DNA of 64,000 bases from Streptomyces fradiae ATCC 10745 = DSM 40063 (GCF_008704425.1 NZ_CP023696.1:6302501-6366500), one strand, 5' to 3'; counted from the first letter of the stretch, positions 57,347 through 64,000 are shown. Numbers and translations are program-made. Notes: a model not told the origin generated them from the sequence alone.

Positions 57347-59511
57347 GCACGCCGGCGCAGGTGTCGGGTTCCACGGCGGAACCCGACGGCCTGGAGGACA
57401 GACTCCAGCGGTTCGCGACCATATGGAGCCGGGCCATCTTCCCCGTCACGGCGACGTCGATGACCCGCACCGAGTTCGAGCAGCACCTGCTGCCGCTCGC
57501 CGAGCGGCTCAGCGCCGCCCTGCGCGCCCGCCCCTTCGACGTGGCGCCCGCCCAGGCGGTGGGCGCCGCCCTGGTCGCCGCCCACTGCACGGACCCGGAC
57601 GCCCTGAGCCGCACGCTCGGCGTCGTCGACTCGTACCTGGTGCTCTACTGCGGCACCGGCGCGGACACGCCCGCCGACGACCTGCGGGCCCGCTGCGCCC
57701 GCCTCCAGCACGCCCTGGCCGCCGGGTTCGCGCGGGCCCTGCGCGAGCGGACCCTCAGCGAGCAGGAGGCCATCGCCCGGTCCGCGCTCGCCGCCCGCGC
57801 CTTCGCCGAACAGGCCCTGCACGCCACGGAGGCCCGCTTCCGCGCCGTCTTCGAGGACGCCGCCATCGGCATCGGCATCGCCGACCTCGACGGCAACGTC
57901 CTCGACGTCAACGGGGCGCTCACCCGCATGTTCGGCGGCCTGGAGCAGGTCGTGCGCGGCCGCAAGGTCACCGAGTGGGTCCACCCCGAGGACGCGCCGC
58001 ACGTCTGGAACCTGTACGGCGAGCTCGTCCGCGGCGAGCGCGACCACTTCCGCGTCGAGAAGCCGTTCTACCGCTCCGACGGCACCGTCCTGTGGACCAA
58101 CCTGACCGTCTCCCTGCTCCGCGACCCCGAGGGCCGCCCCCAGTACCAGCTCGCCCTCATGGAGGACACCACCGAGCGGCGGCTGCTCAACCTGCGCCTG
58201 CGCTACGAGGCCACCCACGACGCGCTCACCGGGCTGCCCAACCGCACCCTGTTCTCCGAGCGGCTGGAGAAGGCGCTCACGGCCGGCGAGGACAGCCGCT
58301 TCGGCCTGTGCTACCTCGACCTGGACGGCTTCAAGGCCATCAACGACAGTCTGGGCCACGCCGCGGGCGACCGGCTCCTCGTGGAGGTCGCCGACCGGCT
58401 GCAGACCTGCGCCACCGCGCCCGGCGAGATGGTCGCCCGGCTCGGCGGCGACGAGTTCGTCGCGCTCACCACCGGGCCCCGCGTCACCGAGCGGGACGCC
58501 GAGGAGCTGGCCGGCCGCATCCTGGCCGCCCTGTCCACCCCGATCAGCCTCGACGGACGGGAGATCACCGTGCGGGGCAGCATCGGCATCGTGGAGGGCC
58601 GCGCCGGCGAGCGCGGACCCGCCGACGTGCTGCGCAGCGCCGACATCACCATGTACCGGGCGAAGTCGGCGGGCGGCAACCGCTACGAGCGGGCCGACCC
58701 GGAGGCCGACGCCCGCGCCATCACCCGGCACGGCCTGACCACCGCCCTCCCGGCCGCCCTGGACCGGGGCGAGTTCTTCATCGAGTACCAGCCCCTCATC
58801 CACCTCGGCGACGGCACCGTGCACGGCGCCGAGGCCCTGGTCCGCTGGTGCCACCCGCAGCACGGGGTGCTCGGGCCCGACCGGTTCATCCCGCTCGCCG
58901 AGCACACCGGCCTGATCGTCCCGCTGGGCCGCTGGGTCCTGGACGAGGCGGTCCGGCAGGCCCGGTTCTGGAAGCACCGCCACGCCGACGGCGGCCCGCT
59001 GCGCATCAACGTCAACCTGTCGCCCACCCAGCTCCACCACCCCGGCCTCGTCGGCGACATCACCGACGTGCTGGACCGCTCGGGGCTCGCACCGGGCGCG
59101 CTGTGCCTGGAGGTCACCGAGTCCGCCCTCATCGGCGCCGACGAGGACCTGCTCAAGCCGCTGCGGCAGCTCGCCGAGATGGGCGTCGACATCGCGCTGG
59201 ACGACTTCGGCACCGGCTACTCGAACCTGGCCAACCTCCGCCGACTCCCGGTGAGCGTCCTCAAGCTCGACCGCTCGTTCACGCGGGGCATGCAGCAGCA
59301 CCCGGCCGACCCGGTCGACATGAAGATCGTGGAGGGCATCGTCTCGCTGGCGCACAGCCTCGAACTGGCCGTCACCGTCGAGGGCGTGGAGACCGCCGCG
59401 CAGGCCGAGCAACTGCGCGCCCTGGGCTGCGACACCGCCCAGGGGTGGTACTACGCCCGCCCCGGCGCCCCCGACCGCATCCACTCCCTGGTCCTCGCCG
59501 ACGCCGTCTGA
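57343..59511 (+). CDS. PAS-GGDEF-EAL bifunctional c-di-GMP enzyme
   Basis: 722 residues from GTG 57343, which overlaps the methyltransferase stop. A helical N-terminal region (1-155) resembles an RsbR-type or globin-like sensor. PAS (160-278), GGDEF (285-450; motif G368-G-D-E-F372 intact) and EAL (460-715; E497-A-L, NVNLSP, EVTES, DDFGTGYSNL and VEGVET intact) follow. Both synthesis and breakdown of c-di-GMP are therefore possible. No RxxD inhibitory site is seen before GGDEF. The plan matches streptomycete RmdA/CdgA-like proteins that time sporulation. Confidence 0.93.
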   Translation: MSTPAQVSGSTAEPDGLEDRLQRFATIWSRAIFPVTATSMTRTEFEQHLLPLAERLSAALRARPFDVAPAQAVGAALVAAHCTDPDALSRTLGVVDSYLVLYCGTGADTPADDLRARCARLQHALAAGFARALRERTLSEQEAIARSALAARAFAEQALHATEARFRAVFEDAAIGIGIADLDGNVLDVNGALTRMFGGLEQVVRGRKVTEWVHPEDAPHVWNLYGELVRGERDHFRVEKPFYRSDGTVLWTNLTVSLLRDPEGRPQYQLALMEDTTERRLLNLRLRYEATHDALTGLPNRTLFSERLEKALTAGEDSRFGLCYLDLDGFKAINDSLGHAAGDRLLVEVADRLQTCATAPGEMVARLGGDEFVALTTGPRVTERDAEELAGRILAALSTPISLDGREITVRGSIGIVEGRAGERGPADVLRSADITMYRAKSAGGNRYERADPEADARAITRHGLTTALPAALDRGEFFIEYQPLIHLGDGTVHGAEALVRWCHPQHGVLGPDRFIPLAEHTGLIVPLGRWVLDEAVRQARFWKHRHADGGPLRINVNLSPTQLHHPGLVGDITDVLDRSGLAPGALCLEVTESALIGADEDLLKPLRQLAEMGVDIALDDFGTGYSNLANLRRLPVSVLKLDRSFTRGMQQHPADPVDMKIVEGIVSLAHSLELAVTVEGVETAAQAEQLRALGCDTAQGWYYARPGAPDRIHSLVLADAV

Positions 59512-59559
59512 GGGCCCGGCCCGCCGCGCCGGTGCGGGGGCGGCGCCCCGGCCGGGCCC
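59512..59559. terminator. Possible terminator after the GGDEF-EAL gene
   Basis: GGGCCCGGCC and GGCCGGGCCC flank a 28-nt GC-rich loop immediately after the stop. Confidence 0.4.
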
Positions 59560-59904
59560 CGGCCCGCCGGGGTGAGGCCGCACACACCGCCCGTGCGGCC
59601 CGGGGGACCGGCGCTTCGGTGCCGGGGACGCGGGCGGCCCGCCTGCGGGGCGGGTACGGGGTGGCCGCGCGCGGGCCCGCACGGCCGCGGGCACCGGCGC
59701 GTGCGGCCCCGCTCGCACCGCCGCGTGCGCCGCCGCCCGTCACCGGATGCGGGCGCCCCTGTGGAATCGGCCACTCCGCTCCCTGTGGCCGAACGGTGAG
59801 GACCGGCGGGCACGAGGTTGATCCGCGCGTGCGACTGAGGGAAGGTGGGGGAATCCTGTCTTCCAGTGGAAGGTGATCGGCCCCGCGGCGCGGGGACCGG
59901 AGAT
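59560..59904. other. Intergenic region before the partner-switching operon
   Basis: No gene seen. The last 60 bases (GAGGGAAGGTGGGGGAATCC, CTTCCAGTGGAAGG) are less GC-rich and likely hold the operon promoter; TTCCAGTGGAA is a small palindrome. Confidence 0.4.
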
Positions 59905-61569
59905 ATGGAGAGTTGCGAAGGCCCCCCGCGCTCGGCGCAGGGCCTGATGTCGTCCGTGGGCGCCTCCTGGTTGAGGGCGCCCTACCCGGCCATGGTCGTG
60001 GACACCGCCGGAACCGTCGTGGAGGCGAACGCGCGGGCCGCCGCCCTGTTCCCCGGGGCGGTGCGCGGAGCGCGGCTCGCGGACGCGGCGCCCGACTGGC
60101 TCGTGCGGGGGCACCGGAGCACCGGCCCCGGCGCCGCGCGGCGGGCGGGACCGGCGGGGCCGGTCCGCGGACGCCACGGGACCCGGACCCTGGAGGCCCA
60201 CCCCACACCCGGCGAGGGCGGCCACACCGTGTGGTGGCTGGTCGACGACACCGACCGGTCGCAGGCCCAGGCGGCGCTCCGCAGCGAGCAGGAGCGCACC
60301 GCGTTCCTGGCGGACGCCTCCTCCCGGCTGCTGGCCTCCCTGAACACGGAGCGGTGCATGGAGGTGACGGTCGGCATGGCGGCCGAGCACCTGGCCGACG
60401 CCGCCGTCCTCGTGGCGCCCGGCGCGGGCCGGCGCCACCCGCTGGCGGTCGCCGCCGGCGGCACGGTCACGCACCGCACGGCGCGGATCGACCCGTCGGC
60501 CGTGCCCGGCCTGGCCGAGGCCCTGCAGGGCTTCCCGCCGGTCCCGTCGCGCTGGATCGACCCGGCGGCGCTGCCCGACTGGGCGGTGCCCGAGGCGCTG
60601 ACCGGCCCGGTCGGGTCGGTGGCGGTCACCCCGCTGCCGGGCCACGGCGTACCGGCCGGGGCGCTGATCCTGCTGCGGCGCGGCGACCACGCCGCCTTCG
60701 ACGCCTCGGAGGAGGTCTTCGCGCGGATCTTCGCCGCGCGGGCGGGCATCGCCCTGTCCGCCGCCCGCCTGTACACGGAGCAGAGCGGCATCACGGCCAC
60801 GCTCATGGCCGAGCTGCTGCCCCCGGCCCTGCGGCAGGTGCACGGGGTCGAGTACGCCGGCGGCTACCGCGCCTCCAAGGAGACCGAGCGCGTCGGCGGC
60901 GACTTCTACGACGTCCACCCCGGCGCCGGACCCGACGACGAGACCCTGGCGGTCCTGGGCGACGTGTGCGGCAAGGGACTCCAGGCCGCCGTGCTGACCG
61001 GCAAGATACGCAACACCCTGCAGGCGCTGCTGCCGCTGGCGGACGACCACGGCAGGCTGCTGTGCCTCCTCAACGGCGCCCTCCTCAGCAGCCACCACAC
61101 CCGCTTCGCCACCCTCGTCCTCGCCTCGGTGCGGCGCAGCGGCGGCGTCACCCACCTGCGGCTGACCAGCGCCGGCCACCCCGCCCCGCTGATCCTCCGC
61201 CAGGACGGCACGGTCGAGGAGGCCGACACGTCCGGCACCCTGGTCGGCGCGCTGCCCGACCTCCGGTCCACCACCGCCCACGTCGACCTCCAGCCCGGTG
61301 AGACCTGCCTGCTCTACACCGACGGCGTCACCGAGGCGAGGGGCGGCCCGCTGGGCGACGTCATGTGGGGCGACGAGCGCCTGCGGGACACGCTCGCGGA
61401 GTGCGCCGACATGCCCGCCGAAGCCGTCGTCGAGCACATCCAGCTCGCCGCCGCCACGTGGACCGGGGACCACCGCCAGGACGACGTCGCGGTCATGGCG
61501 ATCACCGCGCCCCGTACGACGCACCTGACAGCGGTGGACGGCCACACACGGGGCAGGTACACCGCATGA
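59905..61569 (+). CDS. PAS-GAF-SpoIIE (PP2C) phosphatase of a partner-switching operon
   Basis: 554 residues from ATG 59905 (CCGGAG upstream; in-frame ATG 59947 is an alternative). PAS (about 20-115), GAF (135-292), then a PP2C/SpoIIE domain (310-536) with metal ligands in GGDFYD (331-336), GDVCGKG (352-358) and DDVAVM. It should dephosphorylate a STAS anti-sigma antagonist, which is encoded two genes downstream. The stop overlaps the ATG of the B12-binding protein. Confidence 0.93.
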   Translation: MESCEGPPRSAQGLMSSVGASWLRAPYPAMVVDTAGTVVEANARAAALFPGAVRGARLADAAPDWLVRGHRSTGPGAARRAGPAGPVRGRHGTRTLEAHPTPGEGGHTVWWLVDDTDRSQAQAALRSEQERTAFLADASSRLLASLNTERCMEVTVGMAAEHLADAAVLVAPGAGRRHPLAVAAGGTVTHRTARIDPSAVPGLAEALQGFPPVPSRWIDPAALPDWAVPEALTGPVGSVAVTPLPGHGVPAGALILLRRGDHAAFDASEEVFARIFAARAGIALSAARLYTEQSGITATLMAELLPPALRQVHGVEYAGGYRASKETERVGGDFYDVHPGAGPDDETLAVLGDVCGKGLQAAVLTGKIRNTLQALLPLADDHGRLLCLLNGALLSSHHTRFATLVLASVRRSGGVTHLRLTSAGHPAPLILRQDGTVEEADTSGTLVGALPDLRSTTAHVDLQPGETCLLYTDGVTEARGGPLGDVMWGDERLRDTLAECADMPAEAVVEHIQLAAATWTGDHRQDDVAVMAITAPRTTHLTAVDGHTRGRYTA

Positions 61570-62684
61570 GCGAAACGACGACCACGTCCGCGACGGACGA
61601 CGAGACCCTGCTGGCCCGCGCCCGCGCAGCGCTGTGGCAAGCCGTGAGCGCCGGGGACGAGCCCGCCGCCACGCGGGCGGTGTTCGCCGCCCTCGACGAC
61701 GGCGCCGCCACCGAGCACGTCCTGCTGGAGGTCATCGCCGCCGTGCAGAACAGGGTCGGCGAGGAGTGGGCGGCGGGGCGCCTCACCGTGGCCCGGGAGC
61801 ACGCCGCCACCGCCATCCACGAGCGGGTCATCGCCGCCATGGCCCACCACGCGCCGGCGCCGCCGCCCGGCTCCGCGGGGGCGGTGACCGTGGCGTGCGT
61901 GGACGGCGAGTGGCACGCCCTGCCCGCACGGCTGCTGGCCGAGGTGCTGCGCCACCGCGGCCACCGGGTCGACTTCCTCGGCGCCCACGTGCCCACCCCG
62001 CACCTCATCGCCCACCTGCACCAGACCGCCCCCGCGGTGCTGGCGCTGTCCTCCTCCCTCCCCACGCGCCTCCCGGCCGCCCACACGGCGATCACCGCGG
62101 TGCAGGCCATCGGCATCCCCGTCCTCGTGGGCGGGGCCGCGTTCGGCGCCGACGGCCGCCACGCCCGGCTGCTGGGCGCCGACGCCTGGGCCCCGGACGC
62201 CCGCGCCGCGGCGGACGTCCTCGGCCGCGGCCTGCCGCGCCCCTCGCCCGGCGCCGCCCGGCTGACCGTGGACGACCTGCCGCACCTGGGCGACCAGGAG
62301 TACACCCTGGTGATGCGGGACAGACGGGGACTGGTGAGGGACACACTGACGGCCCTGGAGGAGCGGCTCCCGGCGATGCGCGCCTACACCGGCGCCCAGC
62401 GGGAGCGCACCGCCGAGGACATCGCCCACATCGTCGACTTCCTCGCCGCCGCCCTCTACACCGACGACGACCGGCTGTTCACCGACTTCCTGCTGTGGAC
62501 CGGCGACGTCCTGGAGGCGCGGCGCGTCCCCGCCCGCTACCTCGACCCCGCCCTCGCCGCCATGACCGAGCACCTGAAAGACTTCCCCCGCACCCTGGCC
62601 CTCCTCGCGCGGGGCCGCGCCGCGCTGCGCGCGCGTGATACTCGTCCCCCCGTCCCCGGCCCCGCCTCTCACCATGAACGCTGA
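61566..62684 (+). CDS. Cobalamin-binding (CarH-type sensor) protein without DNA-binding domain
   Basis: 372 residues from ATG 61566 (ATGA overlap). A four-helix B12-binding_2-like domain (about 10-95) carries W68-x9-E78-H79, the signature of AdoCbl photoreceptors of the CarH/LitR type. The Rossmann cobalamin domain (105-225) has E115-x-H117, with H117 as likely lower ligand; the following Gly of ExHxxG is Pro120. A C-terminal helical domain (about 240-350) resembles RsbR-type sensor regions. No MerR DNA-binding domain is present, so output must pass through protein partners, most simply the phosphatase or STAS protein of the same operon. Confidence 0.88.
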   Translation: MSETTTTSATDDETLLARARAALWQAVSAGDEPAATRAVFAALDDGAATEHVLLEVIAAVQNRVGEEWAAGRLTVAREHAATAIHERVIAAMAHHAPAPPPGSAGAVTVACVDGEWHALPARLLAEVLRHRGHRVDFLGAHVPTPHLIAHLHQTAPAVLALSSSLPTRLPAAHTAITAVQAIGIPVLVGGAAFGADGRHARLLGADAWAPDARAAADVLGRGLPRPSPGAARLTVDDLPHLGDQEYTLVMRDRRGLVRDTLTALEERLPAMRAYTGAQRERTAEDIAHIVDFLAAALYTDDDRLFTDFLLWTGDVLEARRVPARYLDPALAAMTEHLKDFPRTLALLARGRAALRARDTRPPVPGPASHHER

Positions 62685-63087
62685 CCGATACGACTACCTC
62701 GACCTGGTGACGACCGTGGACGGTTCCGGCGTCGCCCGCATCCGCCTCGGCGGCGAGCTCGACTGGGAGACCGCCGACGACCTCACCGCGGCCGCGCGGT
62801 CCTGCCTGACCGCCGACCCGCCGCCCCGGCGGCTCCGCCTGGACTGCGCCGGGCTCACGCTCTGCGACTCGCTGGGCCTCGCGGCTCTGCTCATGATCCA
62901 CCGGAAGGCCGGCGAGACCGGGACGCCGCTGCACCTGGACAACCGGCCGCCGCTGCTCGACCGCCTCCTGGAGCTGACCGGCACGGCGTACCTCTTCGCG
63001 ACCGCGGAGGAGGCGGGCGGCCGGATGGCCGCGGCCGAGCAGGCCGCCGCCACGCGCCCCGCGCCGCCCCCGCCCCCGTCCTCGTAG
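62674..63087 (+). CDS. STAS-domain anti-sigma factor antagonist
   Basis: 137 residues from ATG 62674, overlapping the B12 gene by 11 bp. STAS fold with IRLGGELDWETADDL and the regulatory site D65-S66-x-G68 in LTLCDSLGLAALL; S66 should be phosphorylated by an RsbW-like kinase and dephosphorylated by the PP2C phosphatase. The tail is Ala/Pro-rich (RPAPPPPPSS). Confidence 0.9.
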   Translation: MNADRYDYLDLVTTVDGSGVARIRLGGELDWETADDLTAAARSCLTADPPPRRLRLDCAGLTLCDSLGLAALLMIHRKAGETGTPLHLDNRPPLLDRLLELTGTAYLFATAEEAGGRMAAAEQAAATRPAPPPPPSS

Positions 63088-63459
63088 CAGCGGGGCCACC
63101 GCCCGCCGCACGTACGGGCCCCCGCCCGCCGCCGGGCAGGCTCCGGACGCCCGGCGCGCCCCCGCCCGGGTACCGAGGGCGCCGGAAGCCCGACGTCCGG
63201 GCCACCGGACGTCCCCGACGGCCGGACGCGCGAGGTCGCCGACCGGGCGGTGGACGCCCCGAGGGCCGGGTCGTACGGGCCCACAGGTCGACTCACCGGC
63301 GGCGCGAGGGGAGAATACGGGCAGGGCGACGCGGCCCCGGGAGCCACGCGGCAGCGGGGCGGCGGCGATCCGGACCACGCCGCCCGGCGCCGGGTCACCG
63401 GGGACGTGAAGGAGCCCCACCACGGGTCATGACCGGCACCGGAGCACCGCGGGAGGAAC
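63088..63459. promoter_or_regulatory. Intergenic region between STAS and ATP-binding genes
   Basis: 372 bp, no gene seen. GAGAATAC at about 63310 may be a -10 element; GGGAGGA before 63460 is the ribosome-binding site. The gap suggests that the kinase gene may have its own promoter. Confidence 0.4.
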
Positions 63460-64000
63460 ATGACGGCCGCCGAGCACCCCGCCGCACACCCGGCGGGGCA
63501 GCCCCCCGCCCGCGCCACCGGAGGCGGACCGCGTCCCACCGGGGGCGGGCCGCCCGCCGCCGCCCCCGTGCCGGAGCGGCCCCCCGCCCACTCCGCCGCG
63601 GACGCACGGCACCCCACCACCGACGGGCGGCAGCCGCCCCCGGAAGGTGCACCCGCCGAGGCGCGGCCGCCCACCGCCGCCGGGCCGCCCACCACCCCCG
63701 AAGCGCGGCCCCCGACCGCCGCCGGGCCGTCCACCAGTGCCTACGCGGGGCCGCCCACCGCCGCCGGGCCGTCCACCAGTGCCTACGCGGGGCCGCCCAC
63801 CGCCGCCGGGCCGCCCACCACCCCCGAAGCGCGGCCGCCCACCGCCGCCCGGCCACCCGGCGACCCCGCCGACGGCCGGCACCGCGCCGTCGCCGCCGCG
63901 CGGGCCCGTGTGCGCGACCTCCTGCGCACCCGCGCGGCGGGCCCGGTACCGCCGCGGGTCGAGGACGACGTCCTCCTCGTCGTCACCGAGCTGGTCACCA
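63460..64000 (+). CDS. RsbW-like ATP-binding anti-sigma/kinase protein (3' partial)
   Basis: Open from ATG 63460 (GGGAGGA upstream) to the window end. The first 135 or so residues are a Pro/Ala/Gly-rich region containing 14-residue repeats. The following part, AVAAARARVRDLLRTRAAG then VEDDVLLVVTELVT, is the start of an HATPase_c (RsbW/SpoIIAB-like) domain, with the ELVTN-type ATP-binding helix cut by the window edge. It should be the kinase partner of the STAS protein upstream, or an orphan anti-sigma kinase. Confidence 0.82.
   Translation, partial: MTAAEHPAAHPAGQPPARATGGGPRPTGGGPPAAAPVPERPPAHSAADARHPTTDGRQPPPEGAPAEARPPTAAGPPTTPEARPPTAAGPSTSAYAGPPTAAGPSTSAYAGPPTAAGPPTTPEARPPTAARPPGDPADGRHRAVAAARARVRDLLRTRAAGPVPPRVEDDVLLVVTELVT
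63664..63852. repeat. 42-nt coding tandem repeat in the kinase gene
   Basis: Four units of 14 residues (PPTAAGPPTTPEAR, twice PPTAAGPSTSAYAG, then PPTAAGPPTTPEAR) and a partial fifth. Frame maintained; the order A-B-B-A suggests repeated unequal exchange. Confidence 0.85.

Follow-up and report, generated by a model that had tools for sequence, protein, structure and literature searches.

What might a B12-binding protein of the light-sensor type control when it has no DNA-binding domain and its gene lies between those of a phosphatase and an anti-anti-sigma-type protein? A locus at the right end of a 64,000-nucleotide stretch of Streptomyces fradiae ATCC 10745 = DSM 40063 (GCF_008704425.1, NZ_CP023696.1:6302501-6366500; hereafter the window) raises this question. 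A preliminary description, made from the sequence of the window, reported overlapping genes for a PP2C phosphatase (P0001), a cobalamin-binding protein (P0002) and a STAS protein (P0003), with W68, E78, H79 and H117 in the B12 protein, S66 in the STAS protein and an RsbW-like kinase downstream. These features stood up to analysis: the SpoIIE-type phosphatase and B12-protein genes share 4 bp (ATGA), the B12-protein and STAS genes share 11 bp, the residues are at the claimed positions and a HATPase_c_2 protein is encoded 373 bp 3' of the STAS stop codon. We consider it probable (roughly 0.6) that the operon specifies a partner switch gated by a photocobilin, in which a dark/light adenosylcobalamin (AdoCbl)-biliverdin sensor would act through the SpoIIE phosphatase, Ser66 of the STAS protein and the RsbW-type kinase on a sigma factor of the SigB/F/G type.

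The B12 Protein as a Predicted Photocobilin

Photocobilins combine a CarH-type B12 domain with a biliverdin-binding globin-type domain (PMC10979010). P0002 matches the Pfam families B12-binding (2e-17) and B12-binding_2 (3.7e-13), and its residues 15-356 align to the solved photocobilins 8j2w (5.4e-77) and 8j2x (4.4e-77) in phmmer searches. The AlphaFold2 (AF2) model of the protein (pLDDT 86) superimposes on 8j2w over the whole chain (Foldseek, TMt 0.92) and is all-helical beyond residue 239, as predicted for a globin-type domain C-terminal to the Rossmann domain. The AdoCbl residues W68, E78, H79 and H117 align with W61, E71, H72 and H108 of SasPcob, the standalone photocobilin of Saccharothrix syringae (PDB 8J2W/8J2X; PMC10979010), and H146, D285 and W311 are the counterparts of H137, D270 and W296 in its bilin pocket. 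Among 44 aligned sequences, 42-43 retain the W-x9-EH motif and H117, and 37 retain the bilin aspartate. SasPcob and P0002 are also similar in length and domain order, although one comes from Saccharothrix and the other from Streptomyces and the likeness is at the level of sequence and model. By these comparisons P0002 is a photocobilin with a predicted bilin-binding domain and more than a CarH protein minus its DNA-binding domain. We would expect it to react to both green and red light.

The earlier label of a CarH-like sensor was therefore half right, because the CarH-type B12 light domain is present without a DNA-binding domain but the second, bilin-binding domain had been overlooked. CarH and LitR proteins share with P0002 the B12 domain, the W-x9-EH motif and the lower-ligand histidine. 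However, the MerR DNA-binding domain of CarH is missing from P0002, and the globin-type domain of P0002 is missing from CarH. The Pfam scan detected no MerR domain in P0002, in agreement with the preliminary description, and the protein thus lacks the N-terminal domain that marks the CarH/LitR group; it scores 49.8 against the NCBIfam CarH model, whose cut-off is 400. The sensor fold of AbDPcob, a photocobilin-diguanylate cyclase fusion (PDB 8J2Y), also resembles P0002 (TMt 0.89, 31% identity). Yet AbDPcob carries its output in the same chain and has a histidine in place of the bilin aspartate, whereas P0002 is a standalone protein.

P0002 could nevertheless be a plain B12-only sensor of the CarH type, its C-terminal part being an inert remnant that binds no bilin. 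This would agree with the poor binding of biliverdin by AbPcob (PMC10979010) and with the loss of the aspartate in some distant homologues. AbPcob, however, has alanine and histidine at two of the three bilin-pocket places, whereas P0002 keeps all three residues and is encoded in a genome with a heme oxygenase. We therefore hold a B12-only sensor to be very improbable.

A Conserved Three-Gene Unit

The SpoIIE-photocobilin-STAS arrangement is not confined to S. fradiae. In a class-wide sample of 297 genomes from 114 genera, a photocobilin was found in 48 genomes and 21 genera. We compared 80 named loci from Streptomyces, Kitasatospora, Actinacidiphila, Saccharothrix, Amycolatopsis, Mycobacterium, Actinoplanes, Nocardioides, Actinomadura and others. 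A SpoIIE gene lies immediately 5' of the photocobilin gene in 79 of them and a STAS gene immediately 3' in 75, with both in 74. The gene-order check that the preliminary description had called for in other actinobacteria thus came out in its favor, as did its view of the sensor as part of a SpoIIE-STAS operon, with linkage to kinase genes and, in certain species, to SigB-type sigma genes. In a second sample of 43 loci, which partly overlaps the first and takes in distant homologues, SpoIIE adjoins the photocobilin in 37 loci and STAS in 22. The three-gene order is not due to chance, because it recurs in 74/80 homologous loci when the whole S. fradiae genome has only about 33 SpoIIE domains. 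Furthermore, the three proteins have correlated distances (r 0.56-0.66, whereas permutations reached at most 0.11), and the unit is also present on Streptomyces plasmids, once without an adjacent STAS gene. The neighbor counts, plasmid copies and correlated distances together indicate that the SpoIIE, photocobilin and STAS genes travel together.

Some loci depart from the common layout. The photocobilin gene is tandemly duplicated between SpoIIE and STAS at two of them (L058 and L059), and the B12 and bilin residues checked are kept in both copies. On plasmid NZ_CP023408 (L177), genes for an adenosylcobinamide amidohydrolase (corrinoid salvage) and an ATP-binding protein stand directly 5' of the SpoIIE-photocobilin pair. 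Another locus (L070, genome G262) retains a shortened SpoIIE-photocobilin remnant, apparently a decayed unit.

The gene neighborhoods bear on what the photocobilin touches. It could target the STAS protein instead of the phosphatase and so form a split version of RsbR, the stressosome protein that joins a globin sensor to a STAS domain. Photoglobins have been described as homologous to the globin domain of RsbR (PMC10151467), and the 11-bp overlap of the photocobilin and STAS genes and the frequency of STAS as the 3' neighbor would suit such a pairing. However, SpoIIE is the more constant neighbor in both samples (79/80 versus 75/80 and 37/43 versus 22/43), for which reason we prefer the phosphatase as the direct partner, and no recurrent gene fitting RsbR, RsbS or RsbT was seen near the unit. 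A split RsbR is, in our judgment, distinctly improbable.

A target other than a sigma factor in this strain, such as the PAS-GGDEF-EAL protein encoded upstream (Table 1), is less probable still and has only the slimmest of chances. This cyclic di-guanosine monophosphate (c-di-GMP) protein has strong EAL and GGDEF matches in Pfam, and light-state holo-SasPcob switches on a diguanylate cyclase in trans (PMC10979010). Yet GGDEF/EAL genes were not found as conserved neighbors of the unit among the homologous loci, where the photocobilin, SpoIIE and STAS genes alone recur. No further gene family was seen to recur widely around the three genes, whose surroundings otherwise differ.

Phosphatase, STAS Protein and Linked Kinases and Sigma Factors

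The proposed partners of the photocobilin have several features of a partner switch. The metal-site motifs of the SpoIIE domain (GGDFYD, GDVCGKG, TDG and DD) are near-invariant across 80 sequences, and the metal site of P0001 is intact. In its AF2 model, the PP2C domain is preceded by a PAS-like domain, a GAF-like domain and a coiled coil, although the PAS and GAF matches in Pfam fall under the curated cut-offs, and the best fold match of the model is the RsbU-RsbW part of Rv1364c. Of 76 aligned STAS sequences, 73 have S66 and 75 have D65, and G68 is invariant; together they form a D-S-x-G motif around the candidate phospho-acceptor. The locus therefore has the intact PP2C metal site, the STAS serine and the nearby HATPase_c_2 kinase of RsbU/RsbV/RsbW systems and lacks a cognate sigma gene in the cluster. 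The likeness to the RsbU-RsbV-RsbW-SigB switch extends in some loci to a SigB/F/G sigma gene. The input differs: RsbT or fused sensors serve the known switch, whereas a separate photocobilin is encoded here and the sigma gene is not adjacent in this strain.

Kinases and sigma genes are linked to the unit more often than their genomic density predicts. A HATPase_c_2 kinase is encoded within 3 kb of the unit, in either orientation, in 36 of the 80 loci; the 62 such domains in the 6.7 Mb of the S. fradiae genome would lead to about 4-5. Similarly, a SigB/F/G gene lies within 7 kb in eight loci (L102, L116, L120, L140, L149, L152, L159 and L171), against about 1.2 expected from the seven such genes in the same 6.7 Mb. 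Both expectations are our own estimates from the density in this one genome, and the species are not independent. One locus (L116) is fully collinear, with SpoIIE-photocobilin-STAS-kinase-STAS-SigBFG on one strand, and another (L171) reads SpoIIE-photocobilin-STAS-SigBFG. On plasmid NZ_CP116356, a STAS-kinase-STAS cluster is divergent from the unit.

In six of the eight sigma-linked loci, the sigma factor is 78-87% identical to one S. fradiae paralogue (G000:C1:81545-82219; L086, L175), which makes this gene, with orthologues beside the unit in several other Streptomyces, a candidate for the output sigma. Genomes of the genus often carry 1-4 members of this subgroup, and the linkage is for this reason a lead and not proof. 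Its distribution within the genus (9/11 photocobilin genomes versus 10/17 others) is not decisive.

The preliminary description had also suggested that a carotenoid, stress or developmental sigma factor might lie just beyond the right edge of the window. No sigma gene follows there: to the right of the kinase gene lie a convergent LysR gene and then genes read, by translation, as succinate dehydrogenase. Elsewhere in the genome (L011, G000:C1:6172989-6176348), a MerR-B12 gene (LitR/CarH-like, with W-x9-EH) is divergent from an extracytoplasmic function (ECF) sigma gene, and a gene for a desaturase/oxidase-like protein dependent on flavin adenine dinucleotide adjoins the pair. The MerR-B12 protein is a second candidate B12 photoreceptor, and its locus is probably a carotenoid light switch. 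The existence of a separate MerR-B12 gene beside an ECF sigma gene makes carotenoid control unlikely as the output of the photocobilin unit.

A Proposed Model of a Light-Gated Partner Switch

In the model that we favor, P0002 would hold AdoCbl and biliverdin in the dark as a head-to-tail dimer. Green light, via B12, or red light, via biliverdin, would break the Co-C bond and separate the dimer into monomers, as in SasPcob. The co-translated SpoIIE phosphatase would sense this change through contact with the photocobilin, most likely at its own PAS-GAF-coiled-coil part, and would then set the phosphorylation state of STAS Ser66. Unphosphorylated STAS protein would then bind the RsbW-type kinase, so that a SigB/F/G-type sigma factor is let go. 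The STAS phosphorylation, kinase and sigma steps follow the established behavior of the RsbU/RsbV/RsbW switch.

The photochemical steps are modeled on work with SasPcob. Excitation of either chromophore converts this protein, with loss of the adenosyl group from cobalamin, and its light state is monomeric (PMC10979010). We infer the same light, adenosyl-loss and dimer-to-monomer steps for P0002 by analogy with SasPcob, for which adenosyl loss and the change from dimer to monomer are established (PMC10979010). Regulation by contact in trans was likewise demonstrated with SasPcob, the target being a diguanylate cyclase (PMC10979010).

The S. fradiae genome encodes a heme oxygenase and a cobalamin adenosyltransferase, and both chromophores are therefore plausible in this cell. 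Across the class-wide sample, the heme oxygenase family PF01126 is present in 26 of the 48 photocobilin genomes and 91 of the 249 others (p 0.025, uncorrected for kinship), and within the genus in 9/11 versus 11/17 (p 0.42). This co-occurrence was too weak to be retained as proof of bilin use.

Several observations weigh against a light-gated switch with a sigma output. Many hosts may lack biliverdin, given how many photocobilin genomes are without the PF01126 oxygenase. The kinase gene has no fixed position, and many loci, among them those of Mycobacterium, had none in the flanks that were sampled. Furthermore, no sigma gene was found near the unit in this strain, all seven SigB/F/G genes being at least 330 kb away.

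The same switch could also answer to a signal other than light, with the photocobilin reporting the level or oxidation state of AdoCbl (or biliverdin from heme breakdown) and its photosensitivity being incidental. For example, the cyclase domain of AbDPcob changes its activity on AdoCbl binding alone (PMC10979010). The absence of PF01126 from about half of the photocobilin genomes and the corrinoid-salvage gene beside one plasmid unit are also consistent with such a role. However, plain B12 binding is not expected to need the Trp and Glu-His that are so widely kept with H117, the bilin aspartate is retained in most sequences, and the closest studied protein is photoactive. We regard a non-light signal as unlikely and retain the light-gated switch as our model.

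Gene Map and Leader Region

Table 1. Features of the photocobilin locus (positions counted from the first nucleotide of the window).
Feature	Position	Strand	Basis
SpoIIE/RsbU-type PP2C phosphatase (P0001), PAS-GAF-coiled coil-PP2C, 554 aa	59905..61569	+	Pfam SpoIIE 3.9e-42
Predicted standalone photocobilin (P0002), B12 four-helix bundle + Rossmann + C-terminal bilin globin domain, 372 aa	61566..62684	+	phmmer, AF2/Foldseek, conserved residues
STAS anti-anti-sigma-type protein (P0003), 137 aa, candidate phospho-acceptor S66	62674..63087	+	Pfam STAS_2 3.4e-17
RsbW-type HATPase_c_2 kinase, 264 aa	63460..64000, on to window position 64254 (L009:4961-5755)	+	Pfam HATPase_c_2 1.7e-16
Putative promoter-like element, TTGATC-N17-GAAGGT	59818..59846	+	read by eye from upstream regions
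Shine-Dalgarno GGAAGGTGAT (59868-59877), then G+C-rich hairpin (59878-59899)	59868..59899	+	leader comparison
PAS-GGDEF-EAL c-di-GMP protein	57400-59511	+	Pfam EAL 1.9e-72, GGDEF 5.1e-42

The PAS-GGDEF-EAL gene is directly upstream of the SpoIIE gene on the same strand. At the other end of the locus, the kinase gene does not overlap the STAS gene, and the HATPase_c_2 domain spans residues 142-257 of its product. A 42-bp tandem repeat in five copies (window 63650-63858) either gives the kinase an N-terminus rich in Pro, Thr and Ala or sits 5' of the true start, which makes the annotated start codon uncertain.

A promoter-like element similar to that of the window (TTGnnn-N17/18-GAnGGT) is visible by eye in many Streptomyces homologues. 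We rejected a SigB-type autoregulated promoter, because the GTTT-N-GGGTA pattern was not above shuffles. The hairpin that follows the Shine-Dalgarno sequence ends 5 nt ahead of the SpoIIE start codon, and Streptomyces homologues have a G+C-rich hairpin in the same place (leaders L095-L174). Because RNAalifold found no consensus structure in the MAFFT alignment of the leaders, probably owing to differing stem lengths, single-sequence z-scores were used. In 36 Streptomyces leaders, the stretch between the Shine-Dalgarno and the start codon is more stably folded than its dinucleotide-shuffled versions (mean z -2.22, 35/36 negative); the window leader by itself, over a longer stretch, is not exceptional (z 0.06). 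The stem stands 5-7 nt from the start codon in 28 of the measured leaders, a spacing that would suit skipping of the hairpin. In several homologues the start codon must be 3' of the hairpin because of in-frame stops 5' of it, and in some the predicted stem also includes the 3' part of the Shine-Dalgarno. No known RNA family was detected in window 59000-64000. A palindrome, CTTCCAGTGGAAG (window 59860-59872), lies just 5' of the hairpin and is kept with variation in close relatives; it may be part of the Shine-Dalgarno region or an operator.

Implications for Standalone Photocobilins

Zhang et al. (2024) pointed, from genomic context, to possible partners of SasPcob among STAS, SpoIIE and PP2C proteins and described the function of standalone photocobilins as less clear (PMC10979010). 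The main text of that paper does not mention a linkage to RsbW-type kinases or SigB-type sigma factors. Our analysis assigns P0002, from sequence and model, to the photocobilins, counts how often the unit is conserved and adds the kinase and sigma linkage and the leader hairpin. The SpoIIE-photocobilin-STAS unit and the kinase and sigma genes linked to it in some species name partners and make the role of the standalone photocobilins directly testable.

We see about an even chance that actinobacterial standalone photocobilins in general provide the input to a light-controlled partner switch that is widespread and moves horizontally, and in which a green/red B12-biliverdin sensor would act through a co-translated phosphatase on a SigB-family sigma factor. 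If so, non-photosynthetic soil bacteria would convert green and red light into a sigma output without a photoreceptor that binds DNA, and the unit would offer natural wiring for the control of genes by red light.

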